Origin: Priapulus caudatus
Taxonomy: Eukaryota > Priapulida > Priapulimorpha > Priapulimorphida > Priapulidae
DNA length: 20,285 nt
NCBI RefSeq assembly: GCF_000485595.1
Contig: NW_014577759.1
Span: forward strand, 69,221-89,505
Direction: 5' to 3'
In this document: positions 2,128 to 16,348 of the stretch, one piece after another
How positions within the stretch are numbered: the first letter of the stretch is position 1
Layout of the letters: the number at the start of each line of letters is the position of its first letter
Notes under the pieces: model-generated
The model's input: the letters and a program-made list of their open reading frames with translations, nothing else
The model's database searches: none
Told to the model about the DNA's origin: nothing
Position numbers and translations under genes: made by a program

Positions 2128-2431
2128 TTAGATTCATTAATAGTTATAAAAATGCCGATGTGTAGATGAATTGTGTGAACAAGATGCATACAACAAGTAG
2201 ATGTTTAAACTAGCTTGTTCTCGTCACGATAATGCGCCTCGTTAGATATATCTCCTCTTACTACTTCGTGAAACATGAGAATAAATGAATAACAACAACA
2301 ACAACATCTTACACATAGAATCCTGGGATAGAAGATACATTATTAAGAGCTGTATTAATATTATTATTATTATATTATATGTATCACATTAGGTCTTGGT
2401 GTTATGCGACTGCATGATGCGCTCTGATGCG

Positions 2432-2606
2432 ATCACGAGCTCCGAAGAATCACGTTGATAACGTTCGTTGTCACCGGATCACGATTCGTCGTTAACAACT
2501 TCTACTTTATGAGATTACTCACACGTGATCCCGACGTCACTCTTCGCGTAATCACGGATTCTGCGGTGCCCAATCACTGTACACAGAAAAGATGAGGGGA
2601 CCAAAG
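2432..2606 (+). promoter_or_regulatory. Probable promoter/5' UTR of the FEZ gene with repeated ATCACG motifs
   Basis: The stretch just upstream of FEZ exon 1 is noticeably richer in CpG than its surroundings. ATCACG occurs at 2432-2437, 2449-2454, 2478-2483 and 2551-2556, and its reverse complement CGTGAT at 2524-2529: five copies in 125 bp. An E-box-like CACGTG (2522-2527) and a CRE-like GACGTCA half site (2533-2539) also lie here. No clear TATA box is seen. The transcription start cannot be placed. The regulatory role is inferred from position and motif density. Confidence 0.45.
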
Positions 2607-2911
2607 ATGGCGGAGCTGAAATTTGAAGCTCCTCTTGCAAAATTTGATACAGATGAGTGGTTAGATTTCGAAGATCACCAAGGTTCAGAAGAAGTAAATA
2701 ACCTTAACCGAAGACAGGTTAGGTCCGTTCAAGGGTCTACCGATAACCTATTGTCAGATAATTTTAGTGAAACGGTGTCTGATTCATTGGAAGATCTTGT
2801 CAGCTCTTTCGATGAGAAAATTACAAAATGTTTCAAGAATTACGCAGAGAAAACTGACAAAATAGCTCCAGTGCAAATCAGAACACAGGAAGAAATCATG
2901 AACGATTGCCA
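2607..2911 (+). CDS. unc-76/FEZ: FEZ/UNC-76 family protein, exon 1 (N-terminus)
   Basis: FEZ proteins are cytoplasmic kinesin-1 adaptors that act in axon outgrowth, bundling and vesicle transport. This exon encodes residues 1-101. It opens with MAELKFEAPLAKFD, which matches the invertebrate UNC-76 start, and carries the conserved acidic block EDLVSSFDEK at 62-71, then KCFKNYAEKTD and APV. An in-frame ATG lies five codons upstream (2592), but the one at 2607 is preferred because homologues begin MAEL and the context (A at -3, G at +4) is strong. The exon ends in phase 2 (CA|gtaagt, donor at 2912). The exon that continues it in frame and by homology is at 9474, not the next FEZ exon in the DNA (6330). 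A direct join to 6330 reads into TAA near 6391. Confidence 0.92.
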
Positions 2912-3186
2912 GTAAGTGTTTGTTTTTAATTAAATAGTTTAATATGCAAAGATTGATTGTTGTAAGTTATACAATCGATTGTTTTCATGAATCATGTATA
3001 CAGCCAGATGAAATGGCGACCTGGGCGAGGTCGGTCTGACCGTCTGACAATATGACGCCTGCAGGATAAATTCGAACGGTACGATACATCATATACAATA
3101 CAGGTAGTATGCCTAACAGTAATATGTAAAACTCAGTGGGAGTGAGAAGCCCCCCAGTCTGACCGTTAGGGTCGTGTCTAGATCAT

Positions 3187-3322
3187 AGCCAGGATTAGAC
3201 CGAATAATTCTGTCCCATATAACCTTTTTTATATTTTGTCTGGTGAGGGTTATTGGCCAATAACCCTCACCAAAATATAAAAAAGGTTATATGGGACAGA
3301 ATTATTCGGTCTAAGCCAGGAT
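3187..3322. mobile_element. 118-bp palindromic MITE-like element with 9-bp target-site duplication
   Basis: 3196-3313 is a nearly perfect palindrome starting TAGACCGAATAATTCTG and ending with its reverse complement CGGTCTA, with its centre near 3256 (GGCC). Apart from a 4-nt GTCT insertion in the left arm, the arms pair along their length. AGCCAGGAT flanks it directly on both sides (3187-3195 and 3314-3322), a clean 9-bp duplication. Target duplications of 8-9 bp with long terminal repeats suggest a Mutator-like or Merlin-like non-autonomous element. The superfamily is inference; palindrome and duplication are directly seen. It lies in the intron-like DNA after FEZ exon 1. Confidence 0.88.
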
Positions 3323-3410
3323 ATGCACGGTATCTGCGCATACGTCAAAATTATACCATGACGTCATCATGCCAAGCCTTTTCATTGGTCCAGACGGCAG
3401 ACGTACCGGT

Positions 3411-3561
3411 ACGCATTCCCAATGTATTCCCAATCTAACTTTAGCTGCAATATCGAATGCATCATGGGATGCCTGCTGTCAGTCATGACGTCACCAGAGC
3501 CAGCATGTCAGGCAACACAGGAGTCGAAGTTAGCCGAATACTATGCGCATTGGGAATGCGT
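3411..3561. repeat. 14-bp inverted repeat pair around a 123-bp spacer
   Basis: ACGCATTCCCAATG (3411-3424) has its exact reverse complement at 3548-3561. Related TGACGTCA-like words occur nearby at about 3358-3365 and 3486-3493. No gene is seen inside. It could be the ends of another small non-autonomous element. Confidence 0.6.
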
Positions 3562-4410
3562 GGTACATCACAGGTCAACAGAAATGGCGCTCGAAATATC
3601 GCCGCTCGGCGCTTCGAAATTTTGTAAAAGGTTATATTAGTTTAATACAGAGTATTGTGATACATAGTAAGTCCCAGGATAGCAGGGAAAGGTTCATGTT
3701 TAGAATAAACCCAGTTTGGAAGTTCTAATCTTGAAAAAACGCACCATAAAACCGCCCTGAGTAAATCACTCGATCAGGGGCTCCTCCAAAGAAAATAATA
3801 GGCTCGCGTTGTAACCCTACTCTTGTTGGTTACATTATTGTATCTAGTCAGCGGGTTGGTCCCTAGCATTCGTAATAGAATGTTCTATAGCCCTGCGGCA
3901 ACTGTCCAACTTGTAACTTTGGACTGTTGAAGGTTGTCAAAGAACTTGCCACAAGTTACCTCCTCGTGTCTCACTATGTCATGTGGTGAGAAGGTCACAA
4001 GCGAACAAAGTGACCAAACTTTGTAGCTGAAAAAGTGCTGTAATGAAACAGTTCAGGGTTTCTTTTGATGGAAAATTAGACAAAGGAGGTAATGGCCGGT
4101 TTGGGGGGGAAAAGCGCATGATGGATTTAAAGGCATGCCGTAGGCACGCATGCGGACGTTGCAGGCGGACGCGGGGGGAGAGAGGGAGAGGGGGAACTCC
4201 AGGGGTCTCCCCCAGCAAAAATTTAAAGATTTTAATGTGCACGTGGTGATCTATTAGTGTTGGGAGGCCATCTAACGCAACAAATATTCCTATTTAACAT
4301 ATATCTTCTCACCAAAATTCCTATTTTCCTCCTATTTTTTCACATCTGAAATTCCTATTTTCCTATTTTTTGAGCGTCACTTGTCACTTGACGCCCTGTA
4401 TATATATATC

Positions 4411-5144
4411 GAGTAGATAATAGGGAAGGAGTGTGACTTCAATAAACAAGGGAAATTCGTCATTTACTAGCCTTATAATACCTACGATTTACTATGCGTA
4501 ACTCATCCAACTTGAGCTCAAATCGTACACAGTACATTCGCCTAGCATCGTGCGAAGTCGTTTCCTCGTATACACCAGCAATCCGGAGATACAGACTTAA
4601 ACGTACGACACGATTATCCATTCTTGGGCCATCAATCCAAACGTATTCTCTGCTGAATTTGCAAACAAAAGGCAGCTACTAACGCACTGTTGCTCACTCG
4701 GCGAGGCGGTGTGGCTCGCTGGGAGATTGGACATCGACGCAACACTCGGCAAGATAATCTTTGACCCGGCATACAGCTACATACCGGCATACAGCTGGTA
4801 TGCTCCCCACGCACGCACGCCCACCGCAATCTCCCTGCGAGCCACACCGCCTCGCCGAGTGAGCAAGAGTGGTTAGTAGCTGCCTTTTGTTTGCAAGTTC
4901 GGCGGGGAATACGTTCAGATTGATGGCCAAAGAATGGATAATCGTGTCGTACGTTTAAGTCTGTATCTCCGGATTGCTGGTGTATACGAGGAAACGACTT
5001 CGCACGATGCTAGGTGAATGTACTGTGTACGATTTGAGCTCAAGTTGGATGAGTTACGCGTAGTAAATTGTAGGTATTATAAAGCTAGTAAATGACGAAT
5101 TTCCCTTGTTTATTGAAGTCACACTCCTTCCCTATTATCTACTC
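4411..5144. mobile_element. 734-bp fold-back element with about 320-bp inverted arms
   Basis: The left arm (4411-4729) starts GAGTAGATAATAGGGAAGG, and the right arm (4827-5144) ends with its complement CCTTCCCTATTATCTACTC. Landmarks pair in order along both arms, for example the CGGAGATACAGACTTAAACG block and the GGCGAGGCGGTGTGGCTCGC block, with small indels. The 97-bp loop holds a direct repeat of CCGGCATACAGCT. TA-rich tracts flank both ends, so insertion into TA-rich DNA is likely. No transposase is encoded; open frames inside are symmetric by-products of the palindrome. The superfamily is not identifiable by eye. A lone end of the same family lies at 10998-11093. Confidence 0.88.
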
Positions 5145-6329
5145 CTGATATATAACTATATATATATATCTATATGCTCAAGCCAAGAAATTTCATGAAA
5201 TTTCCAGCACCTAATTATGTTACCACACAAATTTTTATGTAAAAATGGTATTTTGGATATTTCTTAATTACCAGAAAGAGTGAGGATACAAAATTTTCAC
5301 CACATGTTAAGCACAATATGTACCAAAATAGGGCATCAGGATTTTTCTGTAAGTTTCATATTTACCGAGAAAAATGAGAAAAACTGCCTAAAATCGCACG
5401 TTTGAATTTAAACTTTTTATCGAATAAACAGACATAACTAATAAAATACGGCACTTAATAACAATCCCTGACGCGCTTTTTTACAGCAATATGTTCCCAT
5501 TAAGGCGAGTGTAAAATTTAATTATTTCGAGTCACAGAGAAATATCCATTTATACATCGGCTACTATGTCAGTATGTCAGAAAAGGGAACGGAGAAATTG
5601 CCGTTTTTCAATTTTTCACAATTATCGACCGCCTGTGTGAAAAATGGGTGAACGTATATGTGAAATATCTACTGTTAGTACTTACTGCGACATATCCATG
5701 ACTAACTGACACCACTAAATTGGTCAAATGTTCTATGCACCTTGAGAAATTCTGAGAAATTATGAGGTGACCAACGCAATTTCATGCAAAATGGCGCTAA
5801 CCCGCCCATTGCCTGACGTTACTAAGCTATATCAGTATATGTCAACAAACGCACGCCTTACAGTAAGGTGTGAGAACTATTTTGGACTAGAGTGGGATAC
5901 TTGTTGGATTACTAACAGATGACAGCTAGACGCTAGCAGATAGCATGGTTGACGCTGCATGATACTGGCTTAGTGAATATAGTGAAATGCTGGTCGTATC
6001 ATGTCTCTGATGTCAGCTGTGACTCACTACACATGTACGCGAGCAAGCAAAACGCTCTGGAAGTTCACATGTACCGTTATATGGAGAAATGAGCATGTAC
6101 ACAGGTGGCACATAGTGTTAGCCATCGAATAAATTTGAAAATGAAAAATCGGTAAAATTTTGCTTAAAACCTTGAGAGTATCCTTAAGCATGTTCCTTTT
6201 TATGAAGATGTGTGAGACAACGTTTTTTTCAGTATTTATACAAAAAAAGACGAGATTTGGTACTGTTAGAGGAGTTAATCGCAAACTTGAGATCACACAA
6301 TTACATGAAGTTCTTTTTTTCTATTTTAG

Positions 6330-6420
6330 GAGTGCCCATCAGGATCTGAACCTTGTTCTCCAATTGATTGTGAAAAGCCATCTCCATTTTTAATAAAGGA
6401 CATCGAACAGTTCCTAGAAA
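6330..6420 (+). CDS. unc-76/FEZ: FEZ/UNC-76 exon 4 (linker before the coiled coil)
   Basis: The acceptor TTCTTTTTTTCTATTTTAG is strong and ends at 6329; the donor GTATGT starts at 6421. The phase 0 start reads ECPSGSEPCSPIDCEKP, and the end (…EQFLE plus one base) is phase 1 and continues exactly into the exon at 6545. In FEZ2 the residues after the conserved EEIEEMMQ are ESPDPEDDETP, which aligns with ECPSGSEP; hence this exon should follow the exon ending DEIMQ at 10461 (also phase 0). In the DNA it lies about 3.9 kb upstream of that exon. Confidence 0.85.
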
Positions 6421-6544
6421 GTATGTCATAGTGAAGCTGGCATATGTGTATCATTCTTATGTTTTTAGAGTTGTAGTTTTACTAACCTCTACATCTACAA
6501 TGCCTTAACATTTGTCATACGTAATTTTGTCATTCTACTCATAG

Positions 6545-6792
6545 AACTTCAGAGCCTGTCGACAAATCAGCTGACAGAGTTGTACGATGGCATGGAGTGC
6601 ACGATCAAAGAGTACTCTGAGACGCTGATCAGCGAGCTGGCACTGCGTGACGAACTAGAATATGAGAAGGAGTTAAAAAATAGCTTCATCTCTCTGCTGC
6701 TCAGCATTCAAAATAAGTGGCGCATGCTTCAGATGGACAAGAAGCAGAAGAATCGAAAGAACGGTGATAACAAGAAGGATGAAGCTGGCTCG
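6545..6792 (+). CDS. unc-76/FEZ: FEZ/UNC-76 exon 5 (coiled-coil core)
   Basis: This is the most conserved FEZ region. LSTNQLTELYDGMECTIKEY and then ELALRDELEYEKELKNSFIS parallel vertebrate SELNEILEEIETAIKEYSEE and QQLALRDELEFEKEVKNSFI, ending in a Lys-rich QMDKKQKNRKN run. The coiled coil mediates partner binding in the family (for example SCOC-type and kinesin-related partners). The acceptor ends at 6544. The phase-1 carry-over from 6420 completes a Lys codon. The donor is probably GTGTGT at 6793 (phase 0); nearby GTs at 6795 and 6797 are alternatives. Vertebrate proteins have a longer linker (an RFSMEGISN-type segment) after this point, for which I find no exon before 7370. Confidence 0.93.
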
Positions 6793-7369
6793 GTGTGTAT
6801 CTCTCTGTTAAGTCAACAATTTTATTAGTTCATTCATGTTTCTTGTGTGTATACAGAGGGTTCTTGTAGGTCCTATAATACCTGGAAAATCCTGGAATTT
6901 CAAAATGACATTTTGGAAAGTCCTAGAAATTAAGCACATCTATTGTGTCCACGTTTTACTAACTATAATAAATATATTTTATTAAATATATAGCCCTGTT
7001 TTGTGTCTGAGAGGTAAGGGTTAACTCAAAGAATCAGATGCATTTTTGTTTGTGGCACCATTTACAAAGCAGTTGCCAGGACATTAAAAAATGTGACTGC
7101 ATTATTTGCTATTTTTTATTATAACAGTAAAAATCCTTAGTAATTTTCAAGTTAATGTAATAAATAGACTATACTCTACCATGTACGACTATGTTTCACT
7201 ACATTTATACTGTTTGGATATATATCTAAGAGGTGTTTAATTTTTAAAAGGGTAATGTTGTAAGTGTGTCAATGCAGAATGCCATTAATGTTATTGTATG
7301 CATTAATATTTGTAGTTGCAGCTAGACTAGTAGACATCATGTGTAATTCTGTGATTTTGGTCTATTCAG

Positions 7370-7445
7370 TATCTAACAACAGTGATACCCTATCATGCTG
7401 GGATGGTTCCACCTGACATTCCTACTCTACAAATCTTAATAAAAG
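7370..7445 (+). CDS. unc-76/FEZ: FEZ/UNC-76 exon 6 (start of the conserved C-terminal block)
   Basis: The frame reads YLTTVIPYHAGMVPPDIPTL then QILIK. FEZ2 has YLTTVIPYEKKNGPPSVEDL then QILTK, so the identity is clear. The acceptor TCTATTCAG ends at 7369 and the donor GTACGC begins at 7446, with a phase 1 end (one G). The next family segment (the ...LLTDYILK stretch, about 22 residues) was not found anywhere in the window. Reading through the donor stops after a few codons at TGA. Confidence 0.9.
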
Positions 7446-7689
7446 GTACGCTTACATTTACATGATTATGTAATCATGATTTGTACACTGTGTTTCCTCT
7501 GTAATGGGAAGACAGGCAGGGCCTCATCATGCAGGGCTCAATTTCCAAACTTCTTTAGTAGGCATACAGTACCACCTTCCACACCAATCATTCTAAGAGA
7601 TGTGTGGGTGTGATCACCAGAGGAAACATTGTGTCAGTTTATGTATGTAGTCTTTTCTAAATCTATTCTAATTCTAATTATAATTCTAG

Positions 7690-7856
7690 ATCTGAAACAG
7701 TGGTTGTGTATCTGCTTGTGTAGCAAAAGGCAAGTGAATGGAAAAATTATTCACATTTGGTCTGTCTCACAAAATAAAAATGACTTGAATGTGCCAGTCA
7801 GTGCTTGGAGTAAAAATGCTATTACTCAAGAGTCTTTGCCATTGAAATATAAATAA
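7690..7856 (+). CDS. Possible alternative terminal exon of FEZ
   Basis: An acceptor-like TCTAATTATAATTCTAG ends at 7689. Exon 6 ends with one G, and G+AT gives a codon in frame with an open run of 55 codons (DLKQWLCICLCSKRQ… ending SLPLKYK) to the TAA at 7854-7856. An AATAAA overlaps the stop (7852-7857). The peptide does not resemble the usual FEZ C-terminus. Phase, acceptor, stop and polyadenylation signal together make it a candidate alternative end, but chance is quite possible. Confidence 0.22.
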
Positions 7857-7867
7857 ATGAAAGATAA

Positions 7868-8340
7868 TGATTAATATTCGTTAATGGCGGTAATGGGTGA
7901 TGACCTTATTTTCATAAAGATATGTACTGGTGCGATCGTTTCAGGAATACTTTTATCTTAATCCTCACCCCTGAAAACATGGGAAGGGACACCAAATATA
8001 TGTTGCTAGCATGTATATGTACGGAGATATTGAACAAAGATGGATTTTTGGTCATGGCGGGACCTAATTTGCATATTCTGAGTTAATTAATGGTTCGATC
8101 GTTTCGGAATGGTTTTATCTTAATCCTTGAAAACATAGGTACGGACACTAAGTGTATATCATGCATATTTAAGGAGTTATTGGCAAAAAATGAAATTTCG
8201 TTAATGGCGGCCGTAATTTGCATATTACACCACCTAGGGGGAGTTTGCAAATCTGGCAACATTGCTTTTTGTATAAAGGGGTATCATATGTATAATCCCT
8301 GAAAGTTTCAAAGATTGTACTCGAAAATGCATATGGGCCC
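7868..8340 (+). repeat. Repeat X, left copy (inverted partner at 11403-11931)
   Basis: About 470 bp nearly identical to the reverse complement of 11403-11931, starting TGATTAATATTCGTTAATGG and ending near CGAAAATGCATATGGG. Internally it consists of diverged tandem units of about 160 bp. Each begins CGATCGTTTC(A)GGAAT…TTTTATCTTAATCCT (at 7933 and 8096) and ends ATGGCGG…TAATTTGCATATT. Parallel translations of the two copies agree only because the DNA is the same; no real gene is seen. It is probably a non-autonomous mobile element of unknown class. Confidence 0.85.
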
Positions 8341-9473
8341 CATTTTTGTGACATAAGCTAACAGACTACCTATGCATCACTAGTGTTAAAATTTTTTTTT
8401 ACCAATTTTGTGTAAATCTGCACAATGCTCCCTTCATTTCACACCGTCACAGCAAAAATACACAAACAACCATCTCCATATTGGTATCTATGCGTAACCG
8501 AATGTTCACTGATCCCACATGCATTTTTCTCTGAGTTTGTGCACAGTGCTGCGCATGCAGTGATACTGTGTGTTGGAGATGAGCATTTGAATGGCATTTA
8601 CGTGGAATTATTAGGCTATACAAAATACAGAAATATTAAGTAAATGCAATTTGTGTTTATTTATTATTTATTATTAAAACGGCCCAAGTCCCTGTGGATT
8701 GCTCGGCATGCCTTCTGAAATTCCTGAGAGGAACCCTGCATAGACATAGTTTTAGGTTGCCCAGAGGACACTCTATTGGGAAAAAAGCCTATTATAAGCC
8801 TATATAATATAGTATATTATTAAAAATATATAATTATATAATTTTATATATATGTATATATATATTAAATTATTAAATATATAATATTAAATAAATTATT
8901 ATAATATATTATAAGCCTAAAGTCTATATAATATAGCAGGAAACATAAAAGTGAATAAGGTGTTAAGCTGTATAAAATCCACAGAAATTGTATTTTTGAT
9001 GTTATAATAAGAATTTAGTATTTAATTGCACTAAAATCAGCAGCAGCAAATTGTAAGTGAGATCTAAAATAGTTTGGTGTAACTTCGTTCAGCACCCATT
9101 CAAATAAAATTGGACTTTCACGACACGACTACTGGGTTCCGAATAAGGCAATGTACAGGTCATAGCTTTTGATAGTGTTAAATGTAAGGTAATATATATA
9201 TATACAAGTTCATCATTTTAAATTGAGGAATCAACTAACAGTAACAGACATGTATCTGTTGTGTATCTGACACCATTTATTTCAACAATAGAATTTTTTG
9301 CATACCAGTAATTTAGATATTTTAGGGCTACACCATTTTAATGCTACTAAAAAGGATTGCACATGGGAATATTGCATTAATAACATGTAATGATACTTTT
9401 TCGTTTTGTATGTGATGTAATTTTTCGTTTGATATGATAATGTTACATTGTTAGTGTAAATATTTTTTTTTAG
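8341..9473. other. AT-rich non-coding DNA between repeat X and FEZ exon 2
   Basis: No gene is recognised; the 72-codon plus frame at 8425-8643 has no known motif. At about 8791-8940, a very AT-rich tract is bounded by near-direct repeats (TATAAGCCTATATAATATAG and TATAAGCCTAAAGTCTATATAATATAG). Confidence 0.55.
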
Positions 9474-9582
9474 AATGTGGTGGACTATTACTGGCAACTT
9501 CGGTAACATACTTCCCATAGACTGGTCCAAGTCATATGCCAGACAGTTGCACATGCCTTCACTAAATCTATTTGGAAGAAAG
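9474..9582 (+). CDS. unc-76/FEZ: FEZ/UNC-76 exon 2 (displaced downstream of exons 4-6)
   Basis: The frame reads MWWTITGNFGNILPIDWSKS then YARQLHMPSLNLFGRK. The family block in FEZ2 is VWNALTDNYGNVMPVDW then SSHTRTLHLLTLNL. The acceptor TATTTTTTTTTAG ends at 9473 and the donor GTATGG starts at 9583. The first base completes the Gln codon left open by exon 1 (phase 2), and the exon ends in phase 0, matching the exon at 10315. Its length of 109 nt is not a multiple of three, so leaving it out shifts the frame. It therefore belongs between exon 1 and the exon at 10315, yet lies about 2 kb downstream of exon 6. Confidence 0.93.
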
Positions 9583-10314
9583 GTATGGGTAGTGAGATGT
9601 GGTTAGTTTTGATGCATATCTTGTAAATATGTACACTTGTTATCAATGTTTCCTAATCTCAGCCCTCCTCTCTCTATGGATTGGATTTTTCATTTATATT
9701 TTCATGAAAATGGACAAATCACAATATTTCACTGTTATCACAATTTTAAATGAAAATCTCAATAAAATTGTCACTAGTACAGCGAATTCTCATCATTATT
9801 TTTAGGTTTTTCTGTGGTGAAACTCTAATATAACTAATGAAATCTTGAAGATATGTTAACATTTACATTAACATTGAATTGACTATTTGGTTATAATGTA
9901 AAAGTGCATATCAGTAATTTTCATAACTAATTAATTCCATGATTAAGGTAGTTTTTAATAAACTAATGCTTTCATTGGTGTAAATAAATACAGATGTAAA
10001 TTTAAAGGTTTTCCGATTTTTCCATTACAAATTTTGGCATAAATAAAAAAAAATGTACATGTACCTGGTCTTGAGCTTATTACCTAGTACTACTACTACC
10101 TTGCACGGAAATCAGTTTATAAATAGCTAGTTACTATTGTATGGCTGTAAATTTAATTCAAACACGGTGTTGATTCTAGGCCTTTTTGGCATGTTACCGC
10201 ATCTAAATAGGTGTAAATTAGCATTGATAATAATAATGGCATGGGTTAGAATGTATGGCAATTCAAACACAGCTATACATGTATGAAATGAATACGTTAC
10301 CAACTAAATTGCAG

Positions 10315-10461
10315 GACTCTGACCATGACAACTTGGACATGTCTGATGATGAGGAATTGGCTCAGGCGTTTGACATGCATTCTTTGATTGTGTCATCTAC
10401 GAACCAGGAGCCAGTTGTGTCAGCTGATGACGTTATTGATGAAATAGATGAAATCATGCAG
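10315..10461 (+). CDS. unc-76/FEZ: FEZ/UNC-76 exon 3 (displaced downstream of exons 4-6)
   Basis: The 49 codons read DSDHDNLDMSDDEELAQAFD then MHSLIVSSTN and EPVVSADDVIDEIDEIMQ. FEZ2 has TSDDEELREQLDMHSIIVS and EPLFTADQVIEEIEEMMQ. It starts after GCAG (10311-10314), ends at the donor GTTAGA (10462), and is phase 0 at both ends. By homology the next residues are those of the exon at 6330 (ECPSG…), which is also phase 0 but lies upstream in the DNA. The intron from exon 2 (9583-10314) is ordinary. Confidence 0.93.
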
Positions 10462-10997
10462 GTTAGAAAAACCAGTAAATTATTATCTTATAAATTATGG
10501 TCACTTTCTCCCTAGGAATTTCATGAGGCAAGTTGTTTATGCATGGATGGAGTAAAGCCCGGGAATAGGTCATACTCCCTTCTGCTGATTAAAAAAAATT
10601 AATACCCTTTGCCATATTTGGGTACTTTATTTTCACCTAATGAACAGGTAAAGATTGAAAAGAAATAGGAACATAACTATTAAAAATATTTTTATTAAAA
10701 AAAAATACAAATCCATGCATGGAGAAAATTTTACTGGATATCCTAAACTATAAAAATCCTCGTGTTTCGTTTGCCATAACATTACAATGTTCTGAGAATG
10801 TTCTAATGTCACGTCAAATGGTAATACTGTACACGTAAACTTCATGTTCGGACATTAACACCACTTGTTAGGTTTGTCAGAACAGCTAATTATTTATTGG
10901 ACATTGCAAATAAGCTTTAGTTTTTAAGTATCATGTCATGCCCAACATGCATTAAATGTTCGGGATATATATATGTGTTATATATATGTATATATAT
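10462..10997. other. Non-coding DNA after FEZ exon 3
   Basis: AT-rich, without a recognisable exon or element. It ends in a TATATA tract at about 10965-10997 that borders the solo fold-back end. Confidence 0.6.
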
Positions 10998-11093
10998 CAG
11001 GAGTAGATAATAGGGAAGGAGTGTGACTACAATAAACAAGGGAAATTCGTCATTTACTAGCCTTATAATACCTACGATTTACTAAATTTATTT
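10998..11093 (+). mobile_element. Solo end of the fold-back family
   Basis: 11001-11093 matches 4411-4493 almost base for base (one visible change, CTTC to CTAC), in the same orientation as the left arm there. The copy then stops abruptly after ACGATTTACT. It begins CAGGAGTAG after a TATATATAT tract, which matches the outer right end of the complete element (CTACTCCTGATATATA) and suggests the true terminus is CAGGAGTAGATAATAGGG. The rest of the element is missing. Confidence 0.85.
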
Positions 11094-11402
11094 TGGGGTT
11101 TGTTACAGTAGCTTTTTCACAACAGCAATGTTAAATTTGACAACGGCGGTGCGCCACTGTGCCTCTTATGTATAAGAAACCCTGAGTTGTAGAGCATGGT
11201 CGAGCTACTAAAGACAGTACTCGACTGAAATATTGCTGAATTGTGCGATACTAGCGCTTGGCCAGTGGCTGGTGATGCATTGAAAACTGTGAATGCTAGT
11301 CGACATTGCAAATATACAATTGCTAGTCAGTTGTCTCATTGGAAATGGTCATTTTGTGGTGTTGTGCAATCTTTAGAATAGTGCAGTGTAGTGTATATAG
11401 TG

Positions 11403-11931
11403 GAACCCATATATATGCATTTTCGGGTACAATCTTTGAAACTTTCAGGGATTGTACATATGATACCCCTTTATACAAAAACCAATGTTGCCAGATTTGC
11501 AAACCCCCCCTAGGTGGTGTAATATGCAAATTAAGGCCGCCATTACCGAAATTTCATTTTTTGCCAATAACTCCTTAAATATGCATGATACCAAGAGTGC
11601 ATAATCTCTATTATGCACTCTTGATGATACCAACATACACTTAGTGTCCGTACCTATGTTTTCAAAGGTAAGGATTAAGATAAAACCATTCCCGAAACGA
11701 TCGAACCATTAATTAACTCAGAATATGCAAATTAGGTCCCGCCATGACCAAAAATCCATCTTTGTTCAATATCTCCGTACCTATACATGCTAGCAACATA
11801 TATTTGGTGTCCTTTCTCATGTTTTCAGGGGTGAGGATTAAGATAAAAGTATTCTTAAAACAATCGCACTAGTACATAACTTTATGAAAATAAGGTCATC
11901 ACCCATTACCGCCATTAACGAATATTAATCA
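11403..11931 (-). repeat. Repeat X, right copy (inverted relative to 7868-8340)
   Basis: This is the reverse-complement partner of 7868-8340, highly similar along its whole length apart from point changes, a few short indels and a small palindromic insertion at 11593-11622. It ends exactly where the CACTAGCGGGATACCCGG block begins. With its partner it brackets 8341-11402, which carries FEZ exons 2 and 3. Confidence 0.85.
11593..11622. repeat. 30-nt perfect palindrome inserted in repeat X
   Basis: AAGAGTGCATAAT and its exact reverse complement ATTATGCACTCTT are separated by CTCT. The left copy of repeat X lacks this segment. GATACC stands directly before it and GATGATACC directly after, like a short duplicated target. 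Confidence 0.75.
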
Positions 11932-12032
11932 CTAGCGGGATACCCGGCGTTGCCCGGGGAAATCAGTGGCGTTACTCAGTTGGTGACCGCTTGGTTGAAA
12001 GGAAAATACCCAAAAAAATCTAACTATTTATC

Positions 12033-12233
12033 TATCCATGCATCCATCCATCCATGCCATTCCATCCCATCCCATCCCATCCCATCGCACCGCATTCCAC
12101 ATGTGACATCCCATGCCATGCCATGCCATGTCATTGCACCGCACCCCATCCCATGCCATGCCATGCCATGCCATCCCATCCCATCCGATCACATGTCATC
12201 CCATCCCATCCCATCCCATCCCATCCCATCCCA
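12033..12233. repeat. (CCATC)n / (CCATG)n minisatellite
   Basis: About 200 bp of CCATC and CCATG pentamers interrupted by short variants such as GCACCGCA and CACATGTGACAT. Two overlapping His/Pro/Ser-rich open frames cross it only because the pentamer lacks stops. Confidence 0.92.
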
Positions 12234-12350
12234 AACAGTAAAAAATAATAAAAAATGAAAAGATAAGACATTAAAAATAAAAAATAATTAATTCAATAAA
12301 TTCATAAATTAAAAAAGAGGTAGGTAAAGGGAAAAAGGGGCGAAAATGTT

Positions 12351-12420
12351 GCCCAGCTGGGACTCGAACCAGTAATCTCGGTGTGGTAGACGAATGTCCG
12401 AGCCATTACGCCATTGCTCC
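12351..12420 (-). repeat. tRNA-like sequence (SINE head or tRNA pseudogene)
   Basis: Read on the minus strand it starts GGAGCAATGGCGTAATGG and includes an A-box-like TGGCGTAATGG (12403-12413) and a near-consensus B box GGTTCGAGTCC (12360-12370). The pattern, including the CGAGATT before the B box, is reminiscent of tRNA-Arg. The T stem is one base short, and the 3' side cannot pair with the GGAGCAA acceptor strand, so it is not a functional tRNA. On the minus strand it is followed by T-rich DNA and the GGATG array, as expected for a tRNA-derived SINE. Confidence 0.65.
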
Positions 12421-12626
12421 AATTATGTTATACACAATGGATTGACACATCTGTGTTGCACGGCGTGTACGCACCGCCATCTATTGATGAATAGAATTTT
12501 TATCAATTTTTAACTTTTTAACTTTTTTGAATTTTTTTTCGTCTAGGAACACTCCCCGGGTATAAGAGATGGCCCTGCGAAAATTGCATCCAGATCGCTT
12601 GGGCGGTTTGGCCGCCTATAGGGAAG

Positions 12627-12695
12627 ATACATACATACATACATACATACATACATACATGCATGCATACATACATACATACATACATACATACA
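12627..12695. repeat. (ATAC)n microsatellite tail
   Basis: About 17 ATAC units with two GCATGC variants in the middle, directly after the retroelement-like 3' sequence. It probably began as the element's simple-repeat tail. Confidence 0.92.
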
Positions 12696-12900
12696 AACTC
12701 AAATATATATTAGATTATCTTTCGGCATCTCGTATAAATATGCATGGTATCTTAATGTATTTATCGAAGTTTTGAAGGGAACCATAATGGTTTAAGTATA
12801 TATAAGACTATTCCTTAGAAGCTTTTGTGTTGTGTAACGGCCATTTTGAAACGCCATTGATAACAAACTCAACCAAATCATGTTTCTTTTCAATTATGTT

Positions 12901-12940
12901 TTACTAGCTGCTGGTACCCGCTGCGCTGGGTAAAATCGTG
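12901..12940. repeat. Second CTAGC…ACCCG…GGGTAAAA boundary word
   Basis: ACTAGCTGCTGGTACCCGCT then GCGCTGGGTAAAA resembles the start of the block at 11932. It is probably the truncated end of a related element; no more of the element is recognisable downstream. Confidence 0.45.
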
Positions 12941-14029
12941 CTACTAATTCATACTACTAATAATGGGACACAATAGGAACATTGGGTAAAAATCGACAAT
13001 AACATTGCACAGAATATGAATATTTAGAAATCAGTCTAATAATAGTACTTGTTACAGTAATATCCCACATTATGGAAGTAATGTAAAACAAATCCAAAAA
13101 AATGTTCCAGAAAAAACATCCATAACTCGAAATTTAGTAATGCAAACTGATTTCCATTATTTAGTTGGAGATTCCTTCCTACAGAAATTATTTTTTGGGT
13201 AAACGTTTATGGTAGGAGTGTAAATTTTATCATATACATACTGTACAGGTAATGGTAAAAATGATTAAAGATATCGAGCCTGAGTTGTCGGCAGCTTGGT
13301 GTATATTACGTTTATTGATGACGATTGAATATGCCTCGTTAGCATGATTGAACCACCTACTTGATGAAAAATTTCATGAGAGCAAGTTTACAATTTGTGT
13401 CGTGAGTTTGCTGGTCTTGATTTGAAAGTTCTGTACAGGCGAATTTTGGCAACCTGAGACACAGTAATAGGGGATATTACTCTAGCTATCAGAGCTTTGG
13501 TTGAATTGCTCTTTGGATAAATTATCATATGTTCAGGTGTACGGAATAAGAATGCATGACATGCTAAAACGTCTACTAACTATCTATGACAATTTTATAA
13601 TAATGTATAATTGAGTAAACTTCAACTCAGATGTTACTTTAACATTACGTTACCTTTATGTCCCACCGTTTACCAATACAGTTGGTCTATCCAGAGAGAT
13701 AGTTTCAATTGTCCATTATATTTTGTGCTAACTTAGCCATTGTGCATCTAAGCCTGTGGCAGTGTGGGTAAACAAAAAAAGAAGGAACAAGACAGATTAT
13801 ACATCGAACAAACACCACCTGGAATTGTTGTTACAAATGGTGGTGAGGTTCACTAGAACATGGTCTTTTGTTAGCAGTCATTGTGTTATTTTGTAAGATT
13901 TTGAATTCGAAGTGTCTCTGCCAGGGAGTTGATATGAATTGATCATAAAAATGTCTCTGAACTACCCTCTAGGTTTATCTATGGGCTCAGATTTTCGTGT
14001 GCTATTAAAGTATTGTTTTTATGTTGCAG
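12941..14029. other. Non-coding DNA before the candidate last FEZ exon
   Basis: No recognisable exon or element was found. It was searched by eye for the missing FEZ segment (a peptide like LLTDYILK before a phase-1 donor) without a credible hit. Confidence 0.5.
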
Positions 14030-14055
14030 TTCTTTGTCCCAAGTCAGGATTGTGA
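14030..14055 (+). CDS. unc-76/FEZ: Candidate last coding exon of FEZ (VLCPKSGL-stop)
   Basis: A strong acceptor TATTGTTTTTATGTTGCAG ends at 14029. If the preceding exon ends in phase 1 with G, the frame reads V-L-C-P-K-S-G-L and stops at TGA (14053-14055). FEZ proteins end …YILKVLCPT, so a VLCP followed at once by a stop, in the phase left by exon 6, is unlikely to be chance. The intervening segment (about 22 residues ending YILK) is not found, so the exon that should directly precede this one is missing or too divergent to see. A direct join of exon 6 to this exon stays in frame but would drop that segment. Confidence 0.45.
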
Positions 14056-16348
14056 TTGAATTCAGCTTAAGCCGGCTGTCAATTATGCAGCCTGGCAAGG
14101 TTGGAGATTCCACTTGATGTTGCGCGGACGTGGTGGCATGAGGATAAGTGCACGACTTGGTCAGTCGATGTGTAGCTGTTTATAATTAGAAATATAGTTG
14201 CATAGCCATTTGGTGTAGTTGGTCATCAGAGAGTTATGCAGTGTCTATAGTGTGACATAAAGTCATAAGTATAAGTTAGATTGAGCTAGAAGACATTTGC
14301 TTTTGGTTGAGTTGCTCTTATGATAAATCTAATATGAGTAACAGTGCATTTGACCGGCATTACTAACTAGATCTGAATATTATCTTAAGATTTCAAACTG
14401 AATATCGTCGCAGTGTATGAAATCATGTCTCATCACTTCATTTTCGTTCAGCCGTTTGTTAATGAATAATTTGTTTACATTAAATAGTTAGTTTAATATT
14501 GTGATAACTTCTTGGGTTGACTAATTGGTCTGTTGTATTTTCAATGCTTTTCTGATAGTTGCTTATAATCGCCACCAGATGACAGTAGTGGATGGTATTC
14601 AGAAATCAGTCCGATAGTATTGGTGCTGACCATCAGGTATTGTAGGTGGTTTCTATGCTATCGTGTGTCAGTTGTTATATACGATGTCGGTTGTTACACG
14701 TATATATGATAATTCATACGAGTCCTCATCTTTGTTCATATAAGCGGTGCTTTTACAATCTTTAATAGACAGGTTTTTTCTGCTACTTTCATATATTTAT
14801 TATGTTTCTAAGATAATGAAAATCTTGAAATCTTTGTTTGAATAGGGCCAGTTTTTCGTATGTAGACACTATTAAAATTTGCGCAACCGATCTGATAGAT
14901 ACAACTATACTTGCCAACTGTGTTGTCACTGGTTTCAGTTGTGACTAATATTAGTTGCATGGCCCAATTTTTTTATCCATAGTCAGCTATTGTCAGCAGG
15001 TCATGATATCAAGCATCTGTCAAAGCAGTGAGAAATGCAGAATGTCAAATTAGTGTTTTTCAACCTATGGATTTCTAAGATAAGTTAACCAATTTCGTTA
15101 AATAATGAAACTGGTTATTTTATTCCAAAATAGCACTATTTGTGACTACGAATTTATGTGCCTTTACGTTCTGCACCTTTCCATAAATAGCTGACAGGGC
15201 AATAACGCACACAGTTGCTGCCAGGGTAAGAAATACACAGGAGCGATGAGCAATTCGCTCTTCAAACCTCCGAAATTGCTCTCGTGAGGCTCATAATAGC
15301 TCCCGTAAAAATTCCCACGACAGCTATTTTTCCACAGACTTGAAAAAGAGCTCCCGTGAGAAAAAGTTATTTTCCCCCTGGTTGCTACATGTCTATATTT
15401 CCTACATGCATCATACTTACCATATAGCTGTTCTCACCTTTCACATGCAATCAAACTATTCTTTGTACAATATAACAACTATGCTCATTCACAGCTACTG
15501 TGGTGCTTTGTATGTTTGTCGAATAATGCATTCTGGGCTTGTTAATAGTTAGTGGCAATGCCGTGTATTCATCACATATTCATTCTTTGGGTTTTTTAGT
15601 TTCAGAGTACTGCATACAGTATAGTTACTCTATACAGCAGCTATTTGCATAACTAGGCACATTCCAGTGCCCCTCATTGCACATTTGCATATTTTGGGGG
15701 ACTTGTATTAATCTGCATGCTGGAAACTATTCAAGCAAATTTAATTGCAAATCCAGAAAATGTTTGTGCTATTTATACTGTAGACCTTTATTTGATGTAA
15801 TTTTTATATAATGGTAGTATTTTGATAAGTTTGGTAAATGTGACTTTTCTAAAGAATCACGAGGAATTCACCATGAGTGACACTATGAATGTGGGGCATG
15901 TTTCCTGCTTACGTTCCTTACTTATATAATAGGATAATAAATGAATTAAGGATGTAGGTTTTACAGATGAATTCATCTGCACCTTCGTTCCTAGGACTAA
16001 ATGGAAACTGTAAACAATATTTATTTGTAGTGATATAGTTGAAAGTGTGAAAACATTCAGTAGCACCAGAGAAGCATCAGTGTATAAAGCTATGGTGTGA
16101 ACAATAATTTTTGTGGAAGTTGTATTTATTTTAAAAATGGGTAATTTCTTTAGTATTTATTGCACTGTATGCTTAATTTATTGCATGATCGTCGTTTCAA
16201 GATTATCTTGATATAATAATTACAGTATATATTTACATGTGTATTATATAAGCTTATATGGCTAAATAATTGTGATTCATAATTAGTAATTAGTATTTAG
16301 TAATTCAGTATTTAAAGGAATATGATACATTGTGTAATGTTTTGGCAG

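Follow-up and report, generated by a model that had tools for sequence, protein, structure and literature searches.

The stretch of Priapulus caudatus DNA considered here (positions 69221-89505 of contig NW_014577759.1, or C699, in the RefSeq assembly GCF_000485595.1) is 20,285 nucleotides long, contains no N and is called the window throughout; coordinates given with no contig name refer to it. The public draft of this species is listed in PMC6947571 as GCA_000485595.2 (Priapulus_caudatus-5.0.1), presumably the assembly analysed here. It carries, on the plus strand, six exons of one FEZ/UNC-76 gene which follow one another in the DNA in the order 1-4-5-6-2-3. As judged from sequence comparisons, this order very probably arose from the swapping of two adjacent blocks, each a few kb long, in the draft assembly, and the gene is probably colinear in the animal. 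The exon order itself probably has no biological meaning.

The FEZ/UNC-76 exons and their order

A profile search of the entire assembly (385 Mb in 2952 contigs) with the FEZ domain PF07763 (240 positions) yields four matches, all of them on the plus strand of C699, scoring above the curated cut-off and arranged non-colinearly: profile positions 1-43 match the window at 2784-2912, 166-239 at 6544-6762, 44-76 at 9475-9573, and 69-131 at 10285-10473. The corresponding exon 1 (2592-2911, PF07763 1-43) ends in phase 2 and is followed in the DNA by exon 4 (6330-6420), which encodes a variable linker and is entered in phase 0 and left in phase 1, by exon 5 (6545-6792, phase 1 in and phase 0 out), which contains the conserved core (PF07763 166-239), and by exon 6 (7370-7445, YLTTVIPYH...LQILIK, phase 0 in and phase 1 out). 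Exon 2 (9474-9582, QMWWTITGNFGNILPIDW..., PF07763 44-76) and exon 3 (10315-10461, PF07763 69-131) are both displaced to the 3' side of exon 6.

Joined in the order 1-2-3-4-5-6, the exons form one open frame, and the resulting protein gives a single PF07763 match over positions 1-239 (E 1.1e-89, 300.7 bits against a cut-off of 28.1), whereas joining them in the order of the DNA produces 23 stops. AG acceptors are present at exons 2-6 and GT donors at exons 1-6. Among the 120 possible orders starting with exon 1, only four remain in frame throughout (123456, 123654, 124536 and 126534), and 123456 is singled out among these by the alignment with homologues; the order of the DNA does not belong to the four and is thus in conflict with both protein order and splice phase. 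Once reordered, the protein shows the same succession of domain and segments as the seven FEZ/UNC-76 proteins aligned with it (P0002, P0003, P0004, P0006, P0008, P0010 and P0014), with identities of 56-63%.

A preliminary description of this DNA had already proposed the non-colinear order, which is upheld by the profile matches, the open joined frame and the 23 stops, and had listed splice borders and phases that agree with those given here, the end of exon 4 now being set at 6420. Exon 1 is likewise confirmed, but its proposed start at 2607 (MAEL) corresponds to the second ATG; the first start codon, also used by the NCBI protein P0001, lies at 2592. The absence of duplicated exons noted there holds as well, since a loose search of readable C699 for extra copies of exons 1-6 returned nothing beyond chance-level matches of 25-46 nt (E 0.05-0.8). 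Neither a duplicate of exons 2-3 before position 6330, which had been named as the mark of an assembly artefact, was found on C699 or by the profile search of the assembly, nor a second, colinear FEZ copy elsewhere, all four PF07763 matches lying on C699. A search of the literature on Priapulus, exon scrambling and misassembly yielded no report of the FEZ locus.

The C-terminal end and the public gene models

In all seven aligned relatives, the part corresponding to exon 6 is followed by a segment like ILQAINEDSPTVPTLLTDYILK, and the C-terminal segment ILQAINEDSPTVPTLLTDYILKVLCPT, present in similar form in all of them, was not found at the Priapulus locus. The motif V(L/I)CP occurs within the last 45 residues of 134 of the 240 FEZ proteins listed, fragments included, and is preceded by a ILQAINEDSPTVPTLLTDYILK-like segment in the first 20 of these examined. 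The conserved 22-residue segment like ILQAINEDSPTVPTLLTDYILK was not found in the first 150,000 of the 163,702 bp of C699, and a 52-residue query for the respective exon retrieved from the whole assembly only exon 6 (E 2.4e-5) and one chance-level match (E 8.8). With frameshifts allowed, the best candidate for this exon in all readable C699 scored 40, as compared to 105 for exon 6 as control, and a C-terminus of the type ...LLTDYILKV(L/I)CPT was found neither in readable C699 nor in the assembly. About 40 kb of C699 are N, including 6.9 kb directly 5' and 9 kb directly 3' of the window, and the next conserved FEZ exon may lie in such stretches. That no such exon could be located 3' of exon 6, in a window without any N, is one of the reasons for regarding the locus as misassembled.

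A possible but weak last exon is present at 14030-14055 on the plus strand, where a phase 1 reading gives VLCPKSGL and a stop. Its family likeness is limited to the four residues VLCP, and its assignment as the last FEZ exon is uncertain.

Two NCBI proteins of P. caudatus show exact matches, P0001 to exons 1-3 and P0121 to exons 5-6, and they are the only models with exact matches among the best 120 of 807 and the best 120 of 441 proteins retrieved. P0001 consists of exons 1-2-3 joined to the putative exon at 14030 by the same acceptor, read in another frame and ending with FFVPSQDCD and a stop, while P0121 starts from an internal methionine of exon 5 and continues through exon 6 into the intron. 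Both appear to be automatic RefSeq predictions, as suggested by their names, which start with PREDICTED. The annotation thus passed over exons 4-6 and turned part of them into a separate gene, as would be expected from a wrong exon order. A comparable situation is described in excerpts from a study of the rhesus macaque draft genome (PMC3426473), in which conserved exon order was violated and automatic gene models were broken, as at the FEZ locus. The excerpts trace broken Gnomon models to misassembly, report misplaced, misoriented or chimeric contigs, and put forward exon order as a means of judging assemblies. The likeness of the NCBI models to those broken ones adds to the case for misassembly, with the difference that the block swap described here occurs within 8 kb and free of N, and is known from the genomic sequence and not from a transcript.

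Exon order and duplicated sequence elsewhere in the draft

The FEZ order is attributed to the draft also because other conserved genes in it are out of order. Pieces of three families were tabulated across the assembly, namely the myosin head (88 pieces, a partial set with 65 of 131 candidates scored), CCT (47 pieces) and kinesin (82 pieces), with each contig counted as one locus, save for two contigs that were each divided manually into two myosin genes. An out-of-order piece occurs in 5 of 48 multi-piece loci and 5 of 155 adjacent pairs, a count that may include false positives. The five loci contain one reversed pair each and are located on C274 and C477 (myosin), C497 (CCT), and C777 and C1991 (kinesin). 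On C1991, a second copy of one kinesin piece, containing a stop, is seen at the colinear place. The CCT locus (C497 136301-139500, 3.2 kb) is a clean second case of the anomaly observed for FEZ: it contains neither N nor a local repeat, and an early exon (SGEIHVTNDGATILK..., profile 21-49) lies downstream of a later one (GSGNLDAIQLIKKLGGS..., profile 155-219). We take both exons to belong to the beta subunit.

Duplicated stretches rich in indels, among them an unmerged repeat at a gap of C699, constitute a further reason for the assignment to misassembly. At the C274 locus (287001-297000), presumably coding for a myosin V-like protein, two additional copies of the displaced exon occur, interrupted by stops and frameshifts, and one of them is at the colinear place. 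The sequence at 295899-296989 differs from that at 292114-293064 by 82 mismatches along with 147 insertions and 7 deletions. In four more pairs of this cluster, 94, 127, 117 and 58 gap columns stand against 58, 36, 47 and 29 mismatches, respectively; the two noisy copies differ from each other by 154 mismatches and 171 gap columns. C274 also carries a run of 25 N, and its initial interpretation as a clean exon swap was dropped because of these duplicate copies. At the C477 locus (102001-122000), two myosin exons are reversed. Frameshifted copies are present here as well: the earlier exon recurs upstream in short noisy versions, and the later one as a noisy copy in inverted orientation. A long pair of copies shows 61 mismatches and 145 gap columns (125 insertions and 20 deletions). 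Tandem units that take in the first part of one exon are also seen there. The excess of insertions in the noisy copies is compatible with raw single-molecule reads having been used to close gaps, into which a second C477 pair fits less well.

The contig with the FEZ gene itself bears a sign of faulty gap closure: positions 39066-40435 of C699 are repeated at 40464-41813 on the other side of a 25-N run (40439-40463), the 1.4-kb copies being 93% identical with 48 gap openings and 28 mismatches. In excerpts from the description of PBJelly (PMC3504050), a gap is defined as 25 or more N, and overfilled gaps are tied to scaffolding errors or to other mistakes suspected in the assembly from which the filling started. 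With the same 1.4 kb on either side, the 25-N run of C699 resembles such an overfilled gap; the FEZ window has no N.

Because out-of-order exons affect 5 of the 48 sampled loci, conclusions drawn from this draft about gene loss, gene splits and intron positions need checking, and a count of exon order offers a cheap check of a draft assembly.

Proposed block edges and alternative explanations

If the draft is at fault, the true order would be P (exon 1), Q (exons 2-3), R (exons 4-6) and W, turned into P-R-Q-W in the assembly, with P extending to about 4396, R from 4397 to about 7858, Q from about 7859 to 11084, and W from 11085 onward. Short contigs may have been placed in a scaffold in the wrong order, the joins being closed afterwards without leaving N. 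Candidate edges are found in the three intervals concerned, designated a (exon 1 to exon 4), b (exon 6 to exon 2) and c (after exon 3). Interval a contains a palindromic repeat, MITE-1 (4397-5160, limits approximate), and interval c a 98-bp MITE-1 end on the plus strand (10987-11084), which is cut at 11084 and forms a direct repeat of 4397-4494 with 96% identity; the longest exact match between the two copies is 55 bp. If the sequence after exon 3 were followed as far as 11084 and then continued at 4495 toward exon 4, intron 3 would contain one whole MITE-1. This direct repeat argues for misassembly because it ties the sequence after exon 3 to that before exon 4, and the 98-bp end is a candidate for the overlap rejoining these exons, although a match between copies of a repeat such as MITE-1 may also have other causes. 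Between exons 6 and 2, the block edge may be marked by the right end of TE-2, a low-copy transposon-like element (7859-8368, plus strand), which is cut at 7859. Its left end, also on the plus strand, lies at 11385-12903 (11385-11934 plus 12714-12903) and is cut at 12903, with a 779-bp stretch within this copy finding no match in C346. The element measures about 4.6 kb in C346 (403704-408343), and the FEZ-side copies are each cut on the inner side.

Several observations weigh against a misassembly. Intervals a and b have no exact 16-mer in common, which means that a simple repeat jump cannot account for all three joins; a three-way repeat jump in the assembly graph was rejected on the same ground. 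The FEZ window is free of N, and in contrast to C274 and C477, a search for a noisy copy of exons 2-3 in the interval from exon 1 to exon 4 was negative, so that a noisy fill of this interval was discarded. Moreover, the count of 5 in 48 loci lacks a finished animal genome as control, C777 and C1991 were counted from pieces alone and might represent neighbouring paralogues, and the second C477 pair has 135 mismatches versus 137 gap columns.

The preliminary description had left the choice between a real rearrangement and a mis-assembly, and the five loci and the indel-rich duplicates now favour the latter, with little beyond the splice sites and the element ends near the joins speaking for the former. 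A real germline rearrangement is improbable; it would have swapped exons 2-3 and 4-6 in the chromosome, perhaps via a circular intermediate recombining at the MITE-1 copies, leaving that haplotype with a broken gene unless trans-splicing rescues it. It would agree with the intact frames and splice sites of all six exons, the direct MITE-1 repeat in two of the three intervals, the transposon ends flanking exons 2-3 and the window free of N, but one local event leaves the 5 of 48 other loci unexplained, the assembly contains the indel-rich duplicates, the next conserved exon is likewise not found, and a linear transcript in the order of the DNA would contain the 23 stops. It is more improbable still that the assembled order is real both here and at the other loci, in which case many Priapulus genes would have permuted exons and their messages would come from joined separate transcripts or some other kind of unscrambling.

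Equally slight is the chance that two FEZ paralogues are present, one with exons 1-3 and the other with exons 4-6, each lacking the other half. NCBI does list two separate FEZ proteins on the scaffold, but the exons cover complementary parts of the FEZ protein, their phases are compatible at every junction, and the assembly holds no further FEZ match. An ancient tandem duplication, followed by reciprocal loss of exons, was also rejected, as no exon remnants were found. A capture and transport of exons 2-3 by a transposon having TE-2 arms, suggested by their position between inverted arms at 7865-8334 and 11413-11934, is the least credible of all, since the arms face the opposite way in C346, an orientation which places the exons outside the TE-2 ends and the element interior on the far side.

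A few minor features of the window may be added. A scan of positions 2400-14400 against Rfam at gathering scores gave nothing. The minus strand at 12345-12425 resembles by eye a tRNA-derived repeat (GGTTCGAGTCCC), and ARAGORN detected no tRNA in the window, including this segment. TE-2-type pieces, low-copy and with long inverted arms, also occur at 1-1099, and the TE-2 element contains a reading frame of 375 residues whose end resembles a CXC domain, scoring below the Pfam cut-off. Finally, intron 1 of the FEZ gene harbors an inverted repeat at 3184-3325 with 55-bp arms that are 95% complementary.

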